From positions 1 to 11,038 of the forward strand of contig JAESUA010000327.1 in the NCBI GenBank assembly GCA_016763255.1: a DNA stretch of 11,038 bases, written 5' to 3'. The notes under the pieces were generated by a model. It was not told where the DNA came from, did no database searches, and saw only the letters and a program-made list of their open reading frames with translations. The translations under genes were made by a program, and so were the position numbers. Origin of the DNA: Magnetovibrio sp. GTDB lineage: Bacteria; Pseudomonadota; Alphaproteobacteria; Rhodospirillales; Magnetovibrionaceae. Shown here in pieces: positions 2,164-11,038 of the stretch; positions within the stretch are counted from its first letter, which is position 1; the number at the start of each line of letters is the position of its first letter.

Positions 2164-3759
2164 TTAGCGAAAAAACATCGTGAGTTCCGGAAATAGCAAG
2201 ACCAACGTGAGAACCAGAATTTGTAGAACGATGAAGGGCATGAACCCGCGAAAAATCGAGATCAACGAAATATGTGGCGGCGCGACAGATTTGAGGAAAA
2301 AGGCTGCCGGGCCGAAGGGGGGCGACAAAAATGAAACCTGCATTGCGATGCAAAAGACAATGCCAAACCATATCGCAACGAAACTCGTATTGCCGACCAA
2401 AGGAGATAATAAGCCAAGTTCATCGATTGGGAGCTTGGAAATGATGGGCAGAAAAACCGGCATCACAAGAAGGACAATGCCGACCCAATCCATAAATGCA
2501 CCTAGAAAAAGAAAAATCACCATCATTATGAAAAGAACACCGACGGTGGATAAATCAGATCCAATTATAAGGTTGGCCACATAGGAGGGGCCTCCGGAAA
2601 TTGTGTAGGCTCCCGCGAGCGCTGTTGCACCCATTGTGATCCACAGAATTGTCCCCGTGGACATGAATGTACGGGTGGCCGCCTCTTTGACCAACTTAAC
2701 GGTCAATTCTTTGCGCAAGAAAATGATAACCAGAACGGCAACAGATCCCATCGCCGCGGCTTCGGTAATTCCAGTAATGCCGGCGTAAATCGAGCCAAGA
2801 ACAACCAACACAACGAGCATCGGTGGAATCAGGCCTTTCGACATCAACCAGGTTTTTGCGATGATACCCTTGCCGAATAATAAATAGGTGCCGGCTGCGC
2901 CAAGAAGCAAAACTACAATGGAAACGAGCAGTTGATTGGTTTCATAGGGAACGTATTCATCTGCGCGCAGTAGACCGTTTGCGTTCTGTACTTCAATTGA
3001 CACGGCGTGAAACAGGCGACCAAATCCCCACAGAGCAAATCCCCATCCAAAGAAGGTGAGGAAACACAACATTTTTTCCTTGGGATCGGGCTCATCATCG
3101 CGGGGTTCTGGTAACGGGGCCAGGCTGGGGTTCAACTGCGTGCGGACAACAATGTAAATGATATAAAACATCGCCAAGATGAAACCCGGTACGAAAGCAG
3201 CCTTAAACAAGGCGTAAATAGAGGTCTCAGTGACCAGGCCGTACATAATCAAAACGATGGAAGGCGGAATCATGGTCCCAAGGCTTCCGCTGGCGCAAAT
3301 TGTCCCCACCGCAAGATTTTGGTCATACTTGAGCCGAAGCATCTGGGGCAATGCAATGAGGCCCAAGAGAACAACTTCGCCGCCGATAATCCCGGACATC
3401 GCAGCCATAACGATGGCCATAATGGAGGTCACGATTGCGATGCCACCACGCGTTCGCGACAGCCACATGTTCAGACTTGTGTACATGTCACGCGCGATAC
3501 CGGATCGTTCAAGCAAATTTGCCATGAAGATAAACAAAGGCACCGAGATCAACACATAATTGGTTGTTATCCCGTAAATTCGCTGACCAAGGATGTTAAG
3601 TGGACCGGTTCCAAAATTGCTGAATATCACGTCCGGACCGAATTTTAGAACCATCACGACAACGGCCAGAAATCCGGACGCAAAGCCGAGCGGCACGCCA
3701 ATTGCCAGCAGCATCAGCATGCCAACAAGCAGGATTATAGAGATCGTTCCCACATCCAT
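2164..3759 (-). CDS. dctM: TRAP transporter large permease, DctM family, extended form
   Basis: A very hydrophobic 531-residue protein, the 12-plus-helix subunit that carries out sodium-driven solute transport across the inner membrane in tripartite ATP-independent periplasmic systems. DctM marks are visible: GTMIPPSIVL at 161-170, GITEAAAMG at 330-338, and the C-terminal FLSPPFGPAAFFLKS at 477-491. It is about 100 residues longer than a usual DctM (around 430). The extra part lies at about 211-310, begins with an acidic, proline-rich linker (PLPEPRDDEPDP) and holds two more hydrophobic stretches. This layout is known in the TRAP group annotated as mannitol/chloroaromatic transporters. ATG 3759 has AAGGG nine bases upstream. 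The gene lies 18 bases behind dctQ, surely in one operon. The substrate is probably an organic acid. Confidence 0.94.
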   Translation of the reverse strand: MDVGTISIILLVGMLMLLAIGVPLGFASGFLAVVVMVLKFGPDVIFSNFGTGPLNILGQRIYGITTNYVLISVPLFIFMANLLERSGIARDMYTSLNMWLSRTRGGIAIVTSIMAIVMAAMSGIIGGEVVLLGLIALPQMLRLKYDQNLAVGTICASGSLGTMIPPSIVLIMYGLVTETSIYALFKAAFVPGFILAMFYIIYIVVRTQLNPSLAPLPEPRDDEPDPKEKMLCFLTFFGWGFALWGFGRLFHAVSIEVQNANGLLRADEYVPYETNQLLVSIVVLLLGAAGTYLLFGKGIIAKTWLMSKGLIPPMLVVLVVLGSIYAGITGITEAAAMGSVAVLVIIFLRKELTVKLVKEAATRTFMSTGTILWITMGATALAGAYTISGGPSYVANLIIGSDLSTVGVLFIMMVIFLFLGAFMDWVGIVLLVMPVFLPIISKLPIDELGLLSPLVGNTSFVAIWFGIVFCIAMQVSFLSPPFGPAAFFLKSVAPPHISLISIFRGFMPFIVLQILVLTLVLLFPELTMFFR

Positions 3760-3777: not shown

Positions 3778-4353
3778 TTATTTTTCGACGTCTTTATCGA
3801 TGTCGAGTGTGTTTGCTTTGATGGCTTCTAGATCGACCTCATCGGTCACATCATGTGTCACCGGTGGCTTGTTCCAGTCGCAAATCAGGTTCGAGATCGC
3901 CTGAATCAAAATCAATGCAAGAAAAGTCAGAATAAGCGGTTTGATGGTTCCCGGAATGGGCGGATCCCACGCGGTTCCATACGTTTCCATAGTTAGTAAT
4001 TTCCGCTTTACCTCTGAAAAAGAGCCCCATATCACCGCAAATGAGAAGACCGCCAGGCAGGCGACTGAGATGCAGTCAAAGATATGCTGTACCCACCTTG
4101 GGACAATATCATAAATGATGAAAATCCGGATGTGGCTACGATGGCGCATTGCGTAGAGACCAGCAAAAAGATAGGCACCACCAGAAACCCAGAGAGACAT
4201 TTCATTTACCCACATGGTTGGGTTAACAAAAACGTACCTTAGGACGACTTCATAGAAAATAATGGCGACAACAAATGGCGTACTCCACAAAGCAACCAAC
4301 CCTAACCAGGTGGACAGCTTATCGATAATATTTTGATCTTTACGATATTCCAC
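3778..4353 (-). CDS. dctQ: TRAP transporter small permease, DctQ family
   Basis: A 191-residue inner-membrane protein with four predicted helices at about 16-38, 50-70, 95-115 and 136-158, the normal DctQ layout. The motif RYVFVNPTMWVNE at 39-51 is the family signature after the first helix. DctQ is the small membrane subunit that works with DctM and the periplasmic DctP. The start is GTG at 4353, preceded by GAGGA four bases upstream; an ATG just before it runs into a stop after three codons. The C-terminal tail, after about 160, is acidic and cytosolic-looking. It leads the dctQ-dctM operon and is divergent from dctP across 280 bases that carry two operator-like sites. Confidence 0.92.
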   Translation of the reverse strand: MEYRKDQNIIDKLSTWLGLVALWSTPFVVAIIFYEVVLRYVFVNPTMWVNEMSLWVSGGAYLFAGLYAMRHRSHIRIFIIYDIVPRWVQHIFDCISVACLAVFSFAVIWGSFSEVKRKLLTMETYGTAWDPPIPGTIKPLILTFLALILIQAISNLICDWNKPPVTHDVTDEVDLEAIKANTLDIDKDVEK

Positions 4354-4406
4354 TAGGTCCTCATTTTTTTTATCTAGTTTTAAGCTTTTGAACCAAGTCT
4401 AGTCTG

Positions 4407-4421
4407 ATTGCCTGACAATCT
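4407..4421 (-). promoter_or_regulatory. Putative GntR/FadR-type operator, dctQ side
   Basis: ATTGCCTGACAATCT. The core ATTGCC-T-GACAAT is a dyad with one degenerate position per arm pair and a right half ACAAT. The same 15 bases occur in reverse orientation at 4565-4579, and a perfect version of the dyad lies at 9693-9705. The regulator is inferred to be the GntR/FCD protein encoded at 6870. Confidence 0.62.
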
Positions 4422-4564
4422 TACAGATTTTTCGGCTCGTCAAGTGGTTTCATACAGCATTCAATATAGTGAAGCATTGTACCGTTCAGGCACTATTTTT
4501 TGCCGGATGTATTGAGGCATGGCCCGACCTCACCATTAAATATTTGGAATATTTCCTTGCAATC

Positions 4565-4579
4565 AGATTGTCAGGCAAT
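4565..4579 (+). promoter_or_regulatory. Putative GntR/FadR-type operator, dctP side
   Basis: AGATTGTCAGGCAAT, the exact reverse complement of 4407-4421. Its core is TTGT-CAG-GCAA. It lies 55 bases before the dctP start and overlaps or abuts possible -35 elements (TTGTCA at 4569 or TTGTCT at 4584), so bound protein could affect dctP transcription directly. Confidence 0.62.
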
Positions 4580-4583
4580 ATGC

Positions 4584-4612
4584 TTGTCTTACTGTATAGA
4601 GGGAATGATAAA
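4584..4612 (+). promoter_or_regulatory. Possible dctP promoter
   Basis: TTGTCT (4584-4589), a 17-base spacer and GATAAA (4607-4612). This would give a very short leader before the ribosome site at 4621-4626. An alternative -10 is TATAGA at 4595. The choice cannot be settled by eye. Confidence 0.25.
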
Positions 4613-4633
4613 TAATTTTAAGGGAGCGGTTAC

Positions 4634-5650
4634 ATGAACTTTAAATCGAAACTTTTGGGAGCGGTCGTCGCGACTGTATTGACGACGGGTAGCGCTTACG
4701 CTGCACAAACATCGCTGACTTTCGCCACCCATCATTCGCCTGAAGGACCTTCTGGCGAACTCATGGGGGCGTTTCTCAAAGATATTGAAGCAATGTCAAA
4801 TGGCGAGATTAAAACCACGGCGTTTTATTCGTCCTCGCTTGTGAAATCTCAAGATACATTCGACGCCGCAGCAAATGGTGTTGTCGATTGTGATATGACA
4901 AATGGCAGCTATCAAACCGGTAAAAATCCGGCTTTTCAATTCGTTGCCGATGTTATGGGCGGTTACGACACACCATTGCAGTACCTGACCTGGGTTAACT
5001 ATGGCGGTGGTGCGGAAATCATCGACAGCCTGTATGCCGAATATGGAATGAAATTCGTTGGCTCTTGGGTCGGCGGCCAGGAATCGCTGACCTCTTCGCG
5101 TCCGTTGAATGGCGTAAGCGATTTGAAAGGCTTCAAATTCCGCTCACCTCCGGGCATGGAATCGGAAATTTTCGCATCCTTGGGCGCCAAACCGGTTGTG
5201 ATGGATTTCACCGAAATCTTTTCCGCGCTTGAGACGAAAGTCATCGATGGCGCCGATGCATCATCGCTGGCCAATAACGTCGGTCTCGGCCTCTATGATA
5301 TCGTGAAGTACACGACCTTCCCGGGCTTCCATTCGATGTCGTCTGACCATATGGCGTGCAATCGTACCGTATGGGACGCATTGCCAGCCAATCATCAGGC
5401 AATTATTGAAACGGCCATGCAGAAGCTCTCCTTGCAACTGATGATGAAAACAATTGTGGCAAACGGCGAAGCGGTCGCAAAGCTTTCCAGTCAAGGTGTG
5501 ACATTGCACAACTGGTCTGGTGAAGACCGTGCGACGTTCCGCGCTGCTGCTAAATCGGCGTGGGGCAATTGGGCCAAGAAAACCCCTGAAACGGCAAAAA
5601 TTGTGGAAAGCCACAAGACGTTTCTTGCCCGCATTGGCCTGGGTGGCTAG
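4634..5650 (+). CDS. dctP: TRAP transporter periplasmic solute-binding protein, DctP family
   Basis: A 338-residue protein with a clear Sec signal peptide: Lys-rich start, hydrophobic core and an AYA-A cleavage site near residue 23. The mature part is a DctP-type binding protein. LKGFKFRSPPG at 164-174 contains the conserved Arg (R170) that, in characterised DctP proteins, clamps the carboxylate of the ligand, and DFTEIFSALETKVIDGAD at 191-208 is the typical following helix region. It captures the substrate in the periplasm and delivers it to DctQM. AGGGAG lies seven bases before ATG 4634. It is transcribed away from dctQM, whereas TRAP genes are often co-directional. Downstream, a weak nine-pair stem (5663-5696) may end or attenuate its transcript before the SDR gene. 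The ligand is probably an acid sugar, judged from the neighbours only. Confidence 0.93.
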   Translation: MNFKSKLLGAVVATVLTTGSAYAAQTSLTFATHHSPEGPSGELMGAFLKDIEAMSNGEIKTTAFYSSSLVKSQDTFDAAANGVVDCDMTNGSYQTGKNPAFQFVADVMGGYDTPLQYLTWVNYGGGAEIIDSLYAEYGMKFVGSWVGGQESLTSSRPLNGVSDLKGFKFRSPPGMESEIFASLGAKPVVMDFTEIFSALETKVIDGADASSLANNVGLGLYDIVKYTTFPGFHSMSSDHMACNRTVWDALPANHQAIIETAMQKLSLQLMMKTIVANGEAVAKLSSQGVTLHNWSGEDRATFRAAAKSAWGNWAKKTPETAKIVESHKTFLARIGLGG

Positions 5651-5721
5651 CACCAAAATGGTACAGGGACGTTGGGGGCAAACTTAGCGTTTCTGTTCCT
5701 TCAATAGAGAAGTTATGACCA

Positions 5722-5765
5722 GATCAACCTGCGCATAAATGAATTCATTTAAGCGCAGGTTGATC
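5722..5765. repeat. Near-perfect 44-bp palindrome
   Basis: The outer arms GATCAACCTGCGC (5722-5734) and GCGCAGGTTGATC (5753-5765) are exact reverse complements, and the centre is AAATGAATTCATTT. The whole 44 bases are self-complementary, except for a single A opposite A (5735/5752), with no spacer. No T run follows in either direction, so it is not a standard intrinsic terminator. It sits between dctP and the SDR gene, 39 bases before the SDR start. It could be a large operator, an RNA hairpin separating dctP from downstream expression, or a mobile palindromic element. Confidence 0.85.
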
Positions 5766-5804
5766 AAATATAAATACCAAATAAGCTAGAATACGGAGCG
5801 ACCA

Positions 5805-6761
5805 ATGAAGATTATGATCCTGGGGGGCGGCGGTTTTATTGGGCAAAGACTCGCCCGTGAACTGAGCCGCCGTGAGATGCTCTGCGGGCAGAAAATTGAC
5901 AGCCTTATTCTTGCCGATATCGCAAAACCTGCGAACGTTGAAGCTTCTTTTTCAGTTGAAACAATCGAATGTGACATGTCGGACAAGCAGTCGGTGGAGC
6001 GCGCATTTGCCGACGACATCGACGTGATCTACATGTTGGCGGCGGTTGTTTCTTCACATGCCGAAGCCGTCTTCGAGGACGGCATGAACGTCAATCTCTT
6101 TGGCATGCATAATGTATTGGAACGATGCCGTGAGATGGCGAATTGCCCAATATTTGTTTACACCTCATCCGCGGCGGTTTTCGGAGGGGAAATTCCCGAC
6201 CTGATCGAAGATTGGACGTTGCTCAATCCTCAGACCTCCTATGGAACGCAAAAGGCCATCGGCGAGCTCTTGTTAAACGACTATTCTCGGCGCAAATTTT
6301 TACAAGGCCGAGGCTTCCGCCTGCCGACGATTTCGGTGCGCCCTGGCAAGCCGAACAAGGCCGCTTCGTCGTTTATGTCATCCATCATACGCGAACCTTT
6401 GAATGGCGAAACGGCGATCTGCCCGGTGGATCGAACCTTCAATCATTACTATTTGTCGCCAAAGCTCTGCATCGAAAATCTAATCTTAGGGGCAGAACTC
6501 AAACAAGAAGATCTTGGCATGAATGTGTGCATGACCATGCCGGGGCAGTATCTTTCCGTTGGCGAAATGATTGATGCCATGAAAGCCATTGCTGGTCCCG
6601 ACTTAGAATCGCTCATCAAATGGGAGAAAGACCCCGCCGTTGAGAAAATTGTATCGGGGTGGTGCAGAAACTTTAACCCACAAAAAGCTTTGTCCCTGGG
6701 GCTAAAACAGGACGCATCGTTTGCTGAAAACATCCAATACTATCTCAACGAAGACATGTAG
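5805..6761 (+). CDS. denD: DenD-like NAD-dependent SDR dehydrogenase of acid sugars
   Basis: A 318-residue extended short-chain dehydrogenase. The Rossmann motif GGGGFIG is at 7-13, the acidic residue of LADIA near 38 suggests NAD, and the active site is TSS (120-122) with Y146 and K150 in YGTQK. The segment RLPTISVRPGKPNKAASSF (172-190), followed by IIREPL, matches what I recall as the signature of D-erythronate dehydrogenase (DenD), which oxidises D-erythronate to 2-oxo-tetronate. The symbol is therefore given for the family, not for proven substrate. The normal DenD partners (DUF1537 kinase, isomerase, class II aldolase) are absent from the window, so it may act on another aldonate. GGAG lies about seven bases before ATG 5805. 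It follows dctP on the same strand, across the 44-bp palindrome. Gne-type epimerases are the nearest alternative. Confidence 0.8.
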   Translation: MKIMILGGGGFIGQRLARELSRREMLCGQKIDSLILADIAKPANVEASFSVETIECDMSDKQSVERAFADDIDVIYMLAAVVSSHAEAVFEDGMNVNLFGMHNVLERCREMANCPIFVYTSSAAVFGGEIPDLIEDWTLLNPQTSYGTQKAIGELLLNDYSRRKFLQGRGFRLPTISVRPGKPNKAASSFMSSIIREPLNGETAICPVDRTFNHYYLSPKLCIENLILGAELKQEDLGMNVCMTMPGQYLSVGEMIDAMKAIAGPDLESLIKWEKDPAVEKIVSGWCRNFNPQKALSLGLKQDASFAENIQYYLNEDM

Positions 6762-6797
6762 TCTGTATTGCCAATAATGCTTACAAATAAGCCTTTC

Positions 6798-6826
6798 TTG
6801 ACGGACTCTGCGAATGTGTATTTTAT
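6798..6826 (+). promoter_or_regulatory. Possible gntR promoter
   Basis: TTGACG (6798-6803), a 17-base spacer and TTTTAT (6821-6826), 43 bases before the gntR start. The ATTGTC/GACAAT dyad is not seen here, so direct autoregulation through that site is not suggested. Confidence 0.4.
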
Positions 6827-6869
6827 GCCAGCTAAACTAAAATATTCTTCACCGGGATAAGAGCCTGAT

Positions 6870-7625
6870 ATGTATGCAATCATTGAACAAACGCAACGTT
6901 TTAAGCTGGTTGCAGATCAACTCGCAGCCAGTATCCGGTCCGGTGATCTGGCGGCCGGCCAGAAGATGCCGCCGGACAAAAAATTGGTTGAAAGTTTTCA
7001 GGTCAGTCGCGCAACGATCAGAGAAGCGATGATTGCACTTGAAGTGATGGGATTGGTCGAAACTAAATTTGGTTCAGGGGCTTATGTTTGCAAGTCCCTG
7101 CCCAAGTTTATCGAGGTTCGAAAACGCCATCATGGATATTTTGAAAATGTTGAGGCGCGATACTCGATTGAACCCGAAATTGCAGCTTTGGCCGCATTGA
7201 ATGCAACCCAAAAAGAACTCGATTTCATGCGTAACTGTGTCGACAACATGATGGCGCCGGACGTCTCGACCCAAATAATTTCCAAGAACGATTGGGCCCT
7301 ACACCTGGCTATCGCCGAAGCCTCAAGAAATACCGTGTTTGTTTCAGTGGTCGAATTTCTGTGGGAAGTCCGAAACAAACTTCCCAAATGGACGCGTCAT
7401 TTCAATGAAAGATCACAAGCTGACAAACACCAGCACCTGTGCATTGAACATTCCAACATTGTCGATGCAATTAAAGCAAAAGACCCAGAGGCCGCACGCG
7501 AAGCCATGCGCATCCATTGTCGCAGTATGGGGACATCAATGCTAAAGGCTTGGCACGAACAAGAAAGTGAATTGAAAGGGGCCGAACAAACCGTTGTCGG
7601 ACGTTTGGAAAAATGGGAACCCTGA
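6870..7625 (+). CDS. GntR-family transcriptional regulator, FadR subfamily with FCD domain
   Basis: A 251-residue DNA-binding regulator. The N-terminal winged helix-turn-helix spans about 10-78, with the typical SGDLAAGQKMPPDKKLVESFQVSRATIREA run and the GSGAYV wing. The C-terminal all-helical FCD domain spans about 95-225 and keeps candidate metal/ligand residues D141-x3-H145, H194 and H216. Members such as UxuR, LldR, PdhR and DgoR sense carboxylic or sugar-acid effectors and release or alter DNA binding. It lies inside the catabolic locus, 108 bases behind the SDR gene, with a possible own promoter. It is the natural candidate to bind the ATTGTC-N-GACAAT dyads at 4407, 4565 and 9693, whose GT-N3-AC core fits this subfamily. 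AAGAG precedes ATG 6870. The effector is unknown, perhaps the substrate or a 2-keto-3-deoxy intermediate. Confidence 0.9.
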   Translation: MYAIIEQTQRFKLVADQLAASIRSGDLAAGQKMPPDKKLVESFQVSRATIREAMIALEVMGLVETKFGSGAYVCKSLPKFIEVRKRHHGYFENVEARYSIEPEIAALAALNATQKELDFMRNCVDNMMAPDVSTQIISKNDWALHLAIAEASRNTVFVSVVEFLWEVRNKLPKWTRHFNERSQADKHQHLCIEHSNIVDAIKAKDPEAAREAMRIHCRSMGTSMLKAWHEQESELKGAEQTVVGRLEKWEP

Positions 7626-7645
7626 CGTCACGGACTTAACAATTT

Positions 7646-7668
7646 ATTGTCAAGATTATTGTCTGAAT
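7646..7668 (+). promoter_or_regulatory. Degenerate half-sites downstream of gntR
   Basis: Two direct ATTGTC half-sites (7646-7651 and 7658-7663), the second running into TGAAT as a damaged version of the operator dyad. ACAAT-TT-ATTGT (7639-7650) is also an inverted pair. The position between convergent genes makes a promoter role unlikely; this may be a decoy, a relic or chance. Confidence 0.2.
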
Positions 7669-7686
7669 CGGCCCTAGCAGCCAGTC

Positions 7687-7729
7687 AAATTAAAGCCGAG
7701 CATGTGTTGCACATGCTCGGCTTTAATTT
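7687..7729. terminator. Bidirectional intrinsic terminator between gntR and the dehydratase gene
   Basis: Perfect 20-base arms (7687-7706 and 7710-7729) around a three-base loop TTG. The stem is GC-rich in its middle (GCCGAGCATGTG), with an A-rich 5' foot and a T-rich 3' foot, followed by more T at 7734-7741. This shape works on both strands and fits the convergent ends of gntR (7625) and the dehydratase gene (7805). Confidence 0.9.
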
Positions 7730-7804
7730 TACATATTTTTTGCCCCGTAAAGCAGACCCAGGAGCCGATCTAAACCCCTAGGTCTGAATCAAGGAAAACA
7801 ATCT

Positions 7805-9625
7805 TTAGTGATTGTCTCTCGGGTGGCCTTTACGCGCGATGTCTCTATGTTCGGTTGCGCCATCCAGGACCATGCCCTGACTGAACGGGGTAACTTTTTC
7901 ACGAAACAATTCCTGCCAGGGTGTCTGGCTTGCTGGAGTGGGATATCCACCGCTGGCTTCCAGCGATGCTTTTCGCTGTTCCAGTTCTGCGTCACTTACG
8001 TTCATATTGACCGTGCAGGCATTCAGATCGATGCGTATCGTGTCGCCCGTTTGCACCAATGCCAGACCACCACCGTCTGCCGCCTCCGGAGAGGCATTGA
8101 GAATCGATGCGGAACCAGAGGTCCCAGACTGCCGCCCATCGCCGATGCAAGGCAGCACGTTGACGCCCTTCTTGATGAGATAAGACGGGGGACGCATATT
8201 CACGACTTCGGCGCCGCCAGGAAATCCTTTTGGTCCAACCCCGCGCATAATGAGGATGGAATGTTCGTCGAGTTGCAGGTCCGGCTGATCAATGCGTTTG
8301 TTAAAGTCCTCAGGCCCGTCGAACACAATAGCCCGCCCTTCAAACGCATTCGGCGTTGTCTCACTGGACAGGTAACGCTGCTCAAACTCTGGGCCGATGC
8401 ATGAGGTTTTCATGATGGCTGAGTCAAAAAGATTGCCCGATAGATTCAAAAATCCAGCGTTCTTCATGAGAGGGTCCGTTGCCTTGCGGATGACCTCCAG
8501 GTTCTTAATTTCAATGCCCGAATAATTCTCGGCCACGGTTTTGCCGTTCGCTGTCAACGCATCGCGATGGGGCATTAAGCCGGCCGACAAAAGTTCTGCG
8601 ATTACGGCCGGCAAGCCACCCGCATGATGGAAATCTTCGCTTAAGAAACGCCCGGCGGGCTGTAAATCAACAAGCAGCGGAATGTTGTAGCCGATCTCTT
8701 GCCAATCTGAGTTTGAAAGGTCAACTCCCATGCGGCTTGCAATGGCATTCATATGGATGGGGGCGTTGGTCGAGCCGCCGAGTGCAGAATTAACCACAAT
8801 CGCGTTTTCAAACGCCTGACGGGTCATGATGTCGCAAGGACGACGGTCTTGTTTAACCATGGCCACAATTTCGAGCCCTGTCTTGTAGGCCATCTGTGCC
8901 CGTTCACGGTAGGGTGCCGGTATTGAGGCGGAACCGGGAAGCTGCATACCCAAGGATTCAGCCAAAGAGTTCATCGTCGTGGCCGTGCCCATGGTATTGC
9001 AATAGCCCACCGACGGCGCCGACAGCGCGACCATCTCAAAAAACTCATCGTCGGTAATTTCACCGGCGGCGTGTAGATTTCTGGCTTCCCACATGATGGT
9101 GCCGGAGCCAGAACGGTTGCCGTTGTGATATCCGTTCAGCATAGGGCCAACTGAAAATGCCAAAGCCGGAATGTTTACTGTGGCTGCGGCCATCAACAAT
9201 GCCGGGGGGGTCTTGTCACAACCAATTGTCAAGACAACGGCATCAATGGGATATCCATAAAGAGTTTCAACCAAGCCAAGATACGCCAGGTTGCGATCCA
9301 GCATTGCTGTTGGACGTTTGCCGGTCTCCTGAATGGGATGCACCGGAAATTCCATCACAATCCCGCCGGCTTCGCGAATGCCTTCACGGGTGCGCTTTGC
9401 CAACTCGATATGGTGGCGATTGCAGGGCGACAGGTCCGACCCCGTTTGGGCAATTCCGATGATCGGTTTTCCCGACTGAAGCTCTTCTAACGTCAGGCCG
9501 TAATTGAGATAACGTTCAAGGTATAGGGCTGTCATTTCAAGGTTGTCAGGATTATTGAACCATTGACGAGATCGCAACGTAGAGCCCTTGCCCAGCTTCA
9601 CGGAAGGTTCATTTTTTTTGGTCAT
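7805..9625 (-). CDS. xylD: IlvD/Edd-family dehydratase, D-xylonate dehydratase type
   Basis: A 606-residue Fe-S dehydratase. It closely follows the remembered sequence of Caulobacter D-xylonate dehydratase: [20 protein letters not shown] (18-37), [19 protein letters not shown] (52-70), [15 protein letters not shown] (125-139) and the same end type PRDNH. The three cluster-ligating cysteines expected in the family are C68, C136 and C209. The reaction in this branch is removal of water from an aldonate to give a 2-keto-3-deoxy acid; D-xylonate gives 2-dehydro-3-deoxy-D-pentonate. Related enzymes take L-arabonate or other aldonates, so the substrate is inferred only. ATG 9625 has GGGGA about eight bases upstream. 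The neighbouring HpcH/HpaI aldolase could split the product, as in a Dahms-like route. The gene converges with gntR and is divergent from the beta-hydroxyacid dehydrogenase gene. Confidence 0.92.
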
Positions 9626-9658
9626 GGGAGGTCCCCGCTATGGCGAATGGTTGGCCGG

Positions 9659-9687
9659 TTAAAACAGATTGAAGTAATTTATGTCAA
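9659..9687 (-). promoter_or_regulatory. Possible dehydratase promoter
   Basis: Read leftward: a perfect TTGACA (9687-9682), a 17-base spacer and TTTTAA (9664-9659), giving a leader of roughly 27 bases. The operator dyad at 9693-9705 lies five bases upstream of this -35. Confidence 0.45.
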
Positions 9688-9692
9688 GGTAT

Positions 9693-9705
9693 ATTGTCTG
9701 ACAAT
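9693..9705. promoter_or_regulatory. Perfect operator dyad between the dehydratase and dehydrogenase genes
   Basis: ATTGTC-T-GACAAT, six-base arms that are perfect reverse complements around one base. It shares its layout with the two sites between dctQ and dctP. It lies just upstream of the dehydratase -35 and overlaps the likely -35 area of the rightward gene, so one bound dimer could control both. Confidence 0.68.
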
Positions 9706-9772
9706 CAGTCACAATCTTTATTTTTGTTTTGGCCGTAGATGCCGAAGCGCAGACGTAATTAGCGGAGTTTAG

Positions 9773-10648
9773 ATGTTAAAAAAAATCACACTTATTGGCA
9801 CAGGCTTGATGGGGTATCCAATGGGCGTGCAATTGCTGAAAGCTGGCTACAGTCTTCAGGTCTGGAATCGCACCATTGATAAGGTAAAGGGTTTGGAAGA
9901 TCTGGGTGCTGTCGTGGCTTCATCGCCGGGCGAAGCGGCAAGATCGGCTGATGTTGTCATAACCATGCTCAGCAATGGCGAGGCCGTGTCAGACGTTCTG
10001 ACATCCGGGGGCGTTGCAAAAGCGATGAAACCGGGCGCTATTTTTGTGGACATGAGTTCCGTCACCCCCTCGCAAGCCCGAGAACATTTCGAAATTTTGT
10101 CAAAGCACGAAATTTCGGCGTTAGATGCTCCGGTATCAGGCGGCACAAAGGGCGCGCAATCAGCTCAGCTCGCGATCATGGCCGGGGGCGACCCCGATGC
10201 CTTCGAACGCGTTAGGCCCGTTCTGGAGGCTATGGGGGCACCTGTATTGGTAGGCCCAACAGGAACTGGGGCTTTGGCAAAACTGGCAAATCAGGCGATT
10301 GTGGCCGTTACGATATGCGCCGTGGCCGAAGCAACTCTGCTTTTGGAAAAGGGCGGCGCGGATGTACCTGCCGTGCGAAAGGCCTTGGCCGGTGGTTTTG
10401 CCGACAGCATTATTTTGCGCCAACACGGCGACCGGATGACCCGACGAGACTTCGAACCGGGCGGCCCGTGTAAGATGCAACTGAAAGACCTAAACAATCT
10501 CGTGAATGTCGCGGAAACATTAAACTTAACATTGCCCCATGTTGAAAAGGCCCGAAGCAGATTTGAAGATTTGTGCAGTAGGCTGGACGGCGGAAATCTC
10601 GATCATTCGGCGATTTTTCTCGAACTGTTGGATATCAACAAGTCGTAA
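9773..10648 (+). CDS. Beta-hydroxyacid dehydrogenase (3-hydroxyisobutyrate / tartronate semialdehyde reductase family)
   Basis: A 291-residue cytosolic NAD(P)-dependent enzyme. The N-terminal Rossmann motif is GTGLMGYPM (9-17), the substrate-binding loop is DAPVSGG (118-124), and the catalytic lysine is K170 in ALAKLANQ. The later KDLNN (238-242) is also typical. Length and motifs are complete for the family, which includes GarR/GlxR (tartronate semialdehyde to glycerate), LtnD (L-threonate oxidation) and 3-hydroxyisobutyrate dehydrogenase. WNR at 31-33 after the second strand lacks the usual NAD-type acidic residue and has Arg instead, which points toward NADP(H); this is an inference. GGAG lies six bases before ATG 9773. 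In this locus it may reduce an aldolase-derived semialdehyde or oxidise the sugar acid itself. It shares a divergent control region with the dehydratase gene. Confidence 0.9.
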   Translation: MLKKITLIGTGLMGYPMGVQLLKAGYSLQVWNRTIDKVKGLEDLGAVVASSPGEAARSADVVITMLSNGEAVSDVLTSGGVAKAMKPGAIFVDMSSVTPSQAREHFEILSKHEISALDAPVSGGTKGAQSAQLAIMAGGDPDAFERVRPVLEAMGAPVLVGPTGTGALAKLANQAIVAVTICAVAEATLLLEKGGADVPAVRKALAGGFADSIILRQHGDRMTRRDFEPGGPCKMQLKDLNNLVNVAETLNLTLPHVEKARSRFEDLCSRLDGGNLDHSAIFLELLDINKS

Positions 10649-10706: not shown

Positions 10707-11038
10707 TTAAAGGGCCGCTTTGAGATTTTCCAAAGCCGCTTCGCGCAACAAAAATACATCCGACCCCGGCATCACTAAATTGTAGCCACGCTTGAACATA
10801 TCTGCGGTCGAGTCACCGGGCATGACAAGTCCGCCCAGCCATTTATCGCTGTCGCGGATGGTGGTTTCGGCTCGTTCCAGGGCCTTGACGAAGGTCGGAT
10901 TTTTATAATCGCCCATGCATCCGGCGGAGGCCGAAAGGTCCAATGGTCCGATAAAAAACATATCGATGCCGTCTTGGGCGCAGATGGCGTCAATATTTTC
11001 AACCGCTTGCAGGCTTTCAATCTGGCAGATCACCAGCA
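10707..11038 (-). CDS. HpcH/HpaI-family aldolase, C-terminal fragment at the window edge
   Basis: The frame is open to the right edge, so only the last 109 or so residues are present; an internal GTG near 11033 is not the real start. Family marks are LVICQIES at the edge, which carries the metal-binding Glu, then FFIGPLDLSASAG with the conserved Asp region, and the C-terminal helix ending in LKAAL. Class II HpcH/HpaI aldolases, such as HpaI, GarL and RhmA, use a divalent metal to split 2-keto-3-deoxy acids into pyruvate and an aldehyde. That is the step that should follow the dehydratase in this locus, giving glycolaldehyde if the substrate is a 2-keto-3-deoxypentonate. It converges on the dehydrogenase gene across a strong hairpin. 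Citrate lyase beta-like proteins are distant relatives but fit less well. Confidence 0.88.
   Translation of the reverse strand, partial: LVICQIESLQAVENIDAICAQDGIDMFFIGPLDLSASAGCMGDYKNPTFVKALERAETTIRDSDKWLGGLVMPGDSTADMFKRGYNLVMPGSDVFLLREAALENLKAAL

Follow-up and report, generated by a model that had tools for sequence, protein, structure and literature searches.

Three dyad sites as probable operators of a GntR/FCD regulator in a sugar-acid gene cluster of Magnetovibrio sp.

Which protein reads the short dyad that occurs three times in a sugar-acid gene cluster of Magnetovibrio sp.? The DNA in question, which we call the window, is one entire contig of 11038 bases (JAESUA010000327.1), and the dyads were noticed in a first-pass annotation made from the letters alone, which placed them in two divergent promoter regions and linked them to a GntR/FCD protein encoded at 6870. 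In our opinion this link is very probably correct: comparison with related loci argues that the three sites, O1 to O3, are operators of the regulator encoded at 6870-7625, and that this protein would act as a repressor.

All three dyads are indeed where they had been placed. O1 (4407-4419) and O2 (4567-4579) lie in the 280 bp divergent spacer at 4354-4633, and O3 (9693-9705) lies in the 147 bp divergent spacer at 9626-9772. O3 is a perfect dyad, ATTGTCTGACAAT (ATTGTC-T-GACAAT), favouring neither strand, and its centre is 74 bp from both divergent start codons. O1 and O2 are one-step variants of this palindrome. O1, assigned to the minus strand, reads ATTGCCTGACAAT on the plus strand and ATTGTCAGGCAAT on the minus strand, and its centre is 60 bp upstream of dctQ; O2, on the plus strand, reads ATTGTCAGGCAAT, with its centre 61 bp upstream of dctP (start codons are those of the open reading frame list, in which dctQ begins with GTG). 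Over 15 bases (4407-4421 and 4565-4579) each is the exact reverse complement of the other, and their centres are 160 bp apart. The core GT-N3-AC, which had been ascribed to the dyads, is complete only at 9693; O1 and O2 carry GC instead of GT in one half. A third divergent spacer, at 628-897 of the window, is not part of the sugar-acid cluster and has no site.

How unusual is this concentration? The pattern ATTGYCNGRCAAT, which covers O1-O3, matches three times in the host assembly (2,712,421 bp in 425 contigs, 67% complete), every time on this contig, so the random scatter across the genome that would have spoken against a regulatory role is not what is seen. The reversed control pattern has no match in the host assembly. 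For ATTGYCNGRCAAT, base composition predicts 0.63-0.79 matches in the whole genome and some 1e-4 in both spacers together (427 bp), and 20,000 dinucleotide shuffles of both spacers never gave more than one. The pattern was itself derived from O1-O3, but the presence of 3/3 matches in two spacers is not explained by the choice of pattern alone. With at most one mismatch to ATTGTCNGACAAT there are eight places genome-wide, and the three on this contig are O1-O3. A loose scan of the window (up to three mismatches) found 10 matches, the mean being 5.9, and 16 of the 200 shuffles had at least as many; this is not significant, and the loose form was dropped as not clearly above chance while the strict form was kept.

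Within the order, 28/60 genomes (the window's included) match the degenerate pattern. Outside the window's genome, 27/52 of these matches have the form ATTGCC[C/G]GGCAAT (a hand count from the list), and the genomes that carry them have no regulator relative above 36% identity among the matches listed; eight other matches within the order were fetched and 8/8 lie inside called open reading frames. A match to the degenerate pattern is thus no diagnostic sign by itself. One same-order genome, G052, contains the reversed control pattern 16 times versus 0-2 in the other 59, and a repeat family there may contain it.

The candidate binder has the build that the first-pass annotation had given it. 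Its N-terminal GntR winged helix (PF00392) scores 62.5 bits against a cutoff of 27 and its C-terminal FCD domain (PF07729) 86.1 bits against 24.3. The GT-N3-AC palindrome by which operators of the FadR (FCD) subfamily are recognised is complete at 9693. In NCBIfam the protein stays under the cutoff of all 25 models listed, including LldR, ExuR, UxuR, PdhR, GlcC and FadR, and the best of them is LldR (111.7 bits, cutoff 311). The effector domain has seven helices in the FadR group and six in the VanR group. Near home, 24/100 genomes (its own included) hold a regulator match at an E-value of 1e-20. The nearest same-order relatives are at most 36% identical among the matches listed, and no orthologous locus was found among the 100 genomes; more distant orthologues were therefore used for comparison. 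The nearest protein found, 71% identical, is on a metagenome contig of 1019 bases, and the viral contigs contained no relative of the regulator.

The comparison rests on 80 loci from named genomes, the best of 467 regulator matches by regulator alignment. They fall into a near group of 26 loci (L049-L073 and L076), with regulators 40-49% identical to the window's, and a sister group of 54 loci (L074-L128 except L076, many from Caulobacter and Sphingomonas), with regulators 35-42% identical. Sites resembling those of the window, here called the TTG type, occur in 22/26 near loci, and the TGG type (TGGTC-N-GACCA) in 0/26; in the sister group the TTG type is found in 4/54 loci and the TGG type in 10/54, seven of these ten no more than 200 bases ahead of the gntR match. 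In three Sphingomonas loci with sister regulators (L115, L116 and L126, the last at 9819 and 9840), TGGTC-N-GACCA and TTGCCTGACAA stand 21 bases apart upstream of gntR; this spacing is roughly two turns of the helix, as though the two types of operator were used jointly.

Most near loci have the gene order dctP-denD-gntR. In 20 of them, with regulators 43-49% identical, the site lies upstream of dctP and the 13-mer ATTGTCTGGCAAT is invariant (20/20), with one fixed mismatch that is always in the gene-proximal half, as it is in O2, the positional counterpart of this site. Thinning to 17 promoters whose flanks are less than 60% identical leaves all 13 positions invariant in 17/17; from -40 to +59 around the site, the only other positions conserved at 80% or more are an ATTG half-site 9 bases upstream (14-16 of the 17 promoters) and one C. 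In Donghicola mangrovi (L071) two direct copies of TTGTCTGGCAA, at 8734 and 8765, stand 31 bases apart upstream of dctP.

Whole genomes with near regulators carry the site at the locus in 23/25 cases. This count includes Pseudoroseicyclus, where the site precedes a dehydratase gene, and two genomes with the site beside dctP on another contig (L146 and L147; in L147 that dctP is assumed to belong to the same operon as the regulator), and the genome of L072 was searched separately from the 25. Away from the locus, ATTGTCTGGCAAT occurs 4 times in 114.9 Mb versus 3.4 expected at equal base frequencies, and 20 of the 43 matches to the degenerate pattern in the relatives' genomes are off-locus, versus 27 expected on the same assumption. 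Fourteen of those 20 were fetched: a crude caller puts 8 within open reading frames and 6 between them, and for four of the 8 (L135, L138, L139 and L140) a better choice of frame places the site upstream of a gene. The flanks scanned for genes were those of L133 and L134, and further targets may lie at L132, L141, L142 and L148. At L133:6005-6017, in the Donghicola mangrovi genome, an off-locus ATTGTCTGGCAAT lies between a cupin-like gene and a gene for an XylR-type sigma-54 activator.

Is it the regulator that the sites follow, or only the dctP-denD operon? Here loci of other make-up are instructive. In Pseudoroseicyclus tamaricis (L068) the perfect palindrome stands upstream of a dehydratase-gntR operon; the dehydratase is 71% identical to the window's, the regulator gene lies behind it, and the locus has no dctP or denD match. 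A member of the Granulosicoccaceae (L072) has a perfect copy ahead of a TRAP dctP that is 25% identical. In Tranquillimonas (L051) a single site lies between dctP-denD-gntR and a divergent tetronate operon, whose L-threonate dehydrogenase, 3-oxo-tetronate kinase and 3-oxo-tetronate-4-phosphate decarboxylase are all above cutoff and whose isomerase is under it (288 versus 325); the 3-oxo-tetronate kinase is present in just 2/26 near loci. As far as gene content tells, the common partner of the sites across these differing contexts is the GntR/FCD protein.

The Pseudoroseicyclus genome has four perfect palindromes. Apart from the copy at the dehydratase operon, one precedes a glucuronate isomerase gene (558 bits, cutoff 387) by 27 bases, one lies 12 bases ahead of an aldo/keto reductase gene with sugar-isomerase-like and zinc-dehydrogenase genes behind it and a second aldo/keto reductase gene divergent from it, and one is 56 bases before a gene like that of L-glyceraldehyde-3-phosphate reductase (485 bits, cutoff 448). 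The two aldo/keto-reductase targets are separate loci. There are also two one-mismatch copies, one of them 1.7 kb from the 12-base copy and in the same cluster, and the degenerate pattern matches at a fifth place. The notion of a purely local regulon thus holds in our incomplete assembly and fails in Pseudoroseicyclus, where the sites are dispersed.

How would such sites act? In the 17 related dctP promoters the dinucleotide TA is found at offset 27/28 from the first T of TTGTC in 14/17, and TANNNT in 8/17; at every other offset in the range 11 to 59, taken singly, the counts are at most 3 (TA) and 1 (TANNNT). O2 itself is followed by a -10-like TATAGA on the plus strand (4595-4600), 27 bases past the first T of its TTGTC. 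With a spacer of 17-18 bases the -35 hexamer would be CTGGCA, within the operator (read by eye). A bound dimer would cover this predicted -35, hence repression. It is for the dctP promoter that the repression model is best shown, at the level of sequence. The sites, their rarity, their conservation with the regulator clade and the geometry of operator and -10 in related dctP promoters can be read from the DNA; from these we infer binding and operon limits, and from gene content the effector and the sign of control.

We therefore picture the following, as a model. When inducer is absent, a GntR/FCD dimer would bind each of O1-O3, and where the operator overlies the -35 region RNA polymerase would be blocked sterically. 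O1 would control dctQM and O2 dctP-denD-gntR; the regulator gene lies in the putative operon downstream of O2, so the regulator would be autoregulated. O3, midway between divergent genes, would govern dehydratase and reductase alike. The inducer would be a sugar acid (tetronate, aldonate or hexuronate) or the 2-keto-3-deoxy derivative of one; by binding to the FCD domain it would make the protein leave the DNA, and uptake and breakdown would be turned on together.

Several observations weigh against this model and should be set beside it. The genomes of Phaeovulum (L049, genome G100) and Limimaricola cinnabarinus (L063, genome G114) have the regulator and no pattern match genome-wide; the L063 contig starts within denD. 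O2 has A rather than T at its centre and does not have the ATTG half-site of its counterparts. No TA stands at offset 27/28 at O1, at the reductase side of O3 or at the Pseudoroseicyclus site, and the dehydratase side of O3 has TACTTC at offset 28, which satisfies TA and does not satisfy TANNNT. In Limimaricola (L057 and L070) the nearest homologues of the window's dctQM (52-65%) stand near the regulator together with a second dctP (58%), and a search allowing one mismatch to TTGTCNGACAA found no site there. The assignment of O1 and O3 thus draws mainly on rarity, geometry and the Pseudoroseicyclus parallel. Finally, FCD regulators of the FadR subfamily can also activate. As an aside on L049 (Phaeovulum vinaykumarii), its dctP match at 4918-5846 consists of two overlapping stretches, away from gntR.

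The palindrome, which the first-pass annotation did not recognise from any described regulator, is in fact already known. In Pseudomonas aeruginosa SJTD-1 the DNase I footprint of AlkR covers ATTGTCAGACAAT (PMC12042122, consulted in part), which is the 9693 palindrome on the other strand, and the same palindrome is carried by primers of another study (PMC6422896, in part). According to the same portion of PMC12042122, AlkR too combines a GntR winged helix-turn-helix with an FCD domain, and it is a dimer and a ligand-released repressor whose operator overlies promoters (-10 regions); it differs in being a VanR-group protein of 219 amino acids that controls alkane oxidation, with C16- and C18-CoA as ligands. 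An AlkR-type VanR identity for the window's regulator was considered and rejected: the match to the solved AlkR chain 9isw is weak and partial (E-value 0.0013, residues 13-106 only), and no alkane monooxygenase was named among the window genes scanned. LhgR, a regulator of l-2-hydroxyglutarate metabolism, has footprints on TAGTCTGACAA and, before its own gene, on TTGTCTGACAA (PMC8206213, in part). It is likewise a GntR-family dimer whose binding is prevented by a hydroxy acid, and the 11-base core is common to both systems; it controls lhgO and not a TRAP/sugar-acid operon, and we set it beside the window's regulator by description only.

Given these precedents, could the dyads serve some other regulator, from the GntR/FCD or a different family, whose gene is elsewhere in the genome? 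AlkR and LhgR, other GntR-family proteins, do bind the same core, and the LysR-type CrgA is reported to bind the alkB2 promoter, whose probes carry the palindrome, although the consulted part of PMC6422896 reports binding for the promoter and not for the palindrome itself. In Donghicola tyrosinivorans a different FCD regulator, 26% identical, has ATTGTCAGACAAT (L135:6001-6013) in front of its gene, at a distance of 22 bases from the start, so the pairing of operator and regulator is not one-to-one; that regulator gene is divergent from an enolase-superfamily gene. On the other hand, what the loci with sites have in common is a regulator gene of this clade; sites accompany it even where loci (dctP-denD versus dehydratase type) have no further gene in common among those found here, and its place is in the putative operon that follows the site. 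We consider a foreign regulator improbable.

Still less likely, in our opinion, is that the same protein at the same sites is an activator, or a dual regulator that loops the DNA through both sites of the dctQ/dctP spacer. Proteins of the FadR subfamily can activate, and O1 and O2 mirror one another at a distance of 160 bp. However, in related dctP promoters the operator overlies the -35 region, the usual position for a repressor, and among the 20 aligned dctP promoters a second site within one mismatch of TTGTCNGACAA is found in L071 only. As for the idea that O1 and O2 bound a small mobile element as its inverted termini, or pair as the arms of a stem in RNA, it is hardly credible and largely refuted despite the exact inversion over 15 bases, since there is a third, solitary copy at 9693, the dctP promoters of relatives have one copy or two direct ones (L071), and the conserved -10 is downstream of the site, so that the site would not be transcribed from that -10.

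The layout of the sites also agrees with what is described for the FadR subfamily. The parts of PMC4494728 consulted give FadR-subfamily operators as TKGT-N3-ACMA palindromes with weak extra half-sites nearby, 7-12 bases from the centre versus 11-14 in our related loci. In divergons a single site tends to lie mid-spacer, and in 71/100 double-site divergons with the regulator gene each site lies near its own operon (PMC4494728, same parts). The window fits both layouts, with a single site at 74/74 bp and double sites at 60 and 61 bp. Those parts name no group for the TRAP/erythronate-dehydrogenase clade, and we found no prior description of a regulon of this clade in a search limited to open-licence literature, the consulted part of PMC5343134 included. 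The palindrome and the operator class are already known, and the regulator is very probably another FadR/FCD-type regulator of sugar-acid uptake and catabolism, ordinary in kind.

What distinguishes the TTG-type from the TGG-type readers? Residue 48 is Ala/Thr in 26/26 near loci versus Pro in 54/54 sister loci, and residue 67, in the wing, is Phe/Tyr in 26/26 versus other residues in 54/54. This division goes with the TTG- and TGG-type sites; it is one split between groups and may be a single event. Residue 37 (Lys versus Arg) was rejected as the cause, as L068, L072 and L073 have Arg and TTG-type sites. AlkR has Arg66, Arg67 and Gly68 in and beside its wing and binds the same palindrome (PMC12042122, in part; set beside the window's regulator unaligned), which suggests that residue 67 is not a general rule. 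A wider picture, which we offer tentatively and rate at somewhat less than an even chance, is that one clade of FCD repressors with one operator, ATTGTC-N-G[A/G]CAAT, places the uptake and oxidation of tetronates, the dehydration of aldonates and, in some genomes, the isomerisation of hexuronates under joint control; its operator would have shifted from TGG to TTG type by a few substitutions, with Ala/Thr replacing Pro48 and Phe/Tyr arising at wing residue 67, and the fixed gene-proximal mismatch in dctP promoters would tune the operator or the -35 element within it.

The remaining features of the window can be given briefly. Its gene order is desaturase, cheW, fliN, dctM-dctQ on the minus strand, dctP-denD-gntR on the plus strand, dehydratase (minus), reductase (plus) and the end of an aldolase gene (minus); the fatty-acid desaturase-family gene is truncated at the contig start. 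The TRAP transporter comprises the large permease DctM (2164-3759, PF06808), the small permease DctQ (3778-4353, PF04290) and the solute-binding protein DctP (4634-5650, PF03480; nearest solved chain 4pe3). The denD-like gene (5805-6761) encodes an NAD-dependent dehydrogenase that scores 384 bits against a cutoff of 325 with the D-erythronate dehydrogenase model NF043036. Between the convergent gntR and dehydratase genes there is a terminator-like stem-loop of 20 pairs with a T-rich tail (7687-7729). The dehydratase (7805-9625) is of the IlvD/Edd family, PRK13017 subfamily, and probably acts on a sugar acid. The reductase (9773-10648) resembles 3-hydroxyisobutyrate dehydrogenase and tartronate-semialdehyde reductase and is under the cutoff of every NCBIfam model matched. 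The aldolase (10707-11036) is the C-terminal part of an HpcH/HpaI-type protein cut by the contig end. Library scans of the window's genes found no 3-oxo-tetronate kinase or decarboxylase on this contig.

What, then, does the locus add? A motif spotted by eye has become a well-supported pair of regulator and operator, kept in 23/25 genomes examined, with binding itself predicted from that conservation. A TRAP/erythronate-dehydrogenase operon seen in 20 related loci now has a candidate regulator. Further, the 13-base palindrome known from two other GntR-family regulators gains one more setting, which is useful for understanding how regulators with different ligands share one operator.

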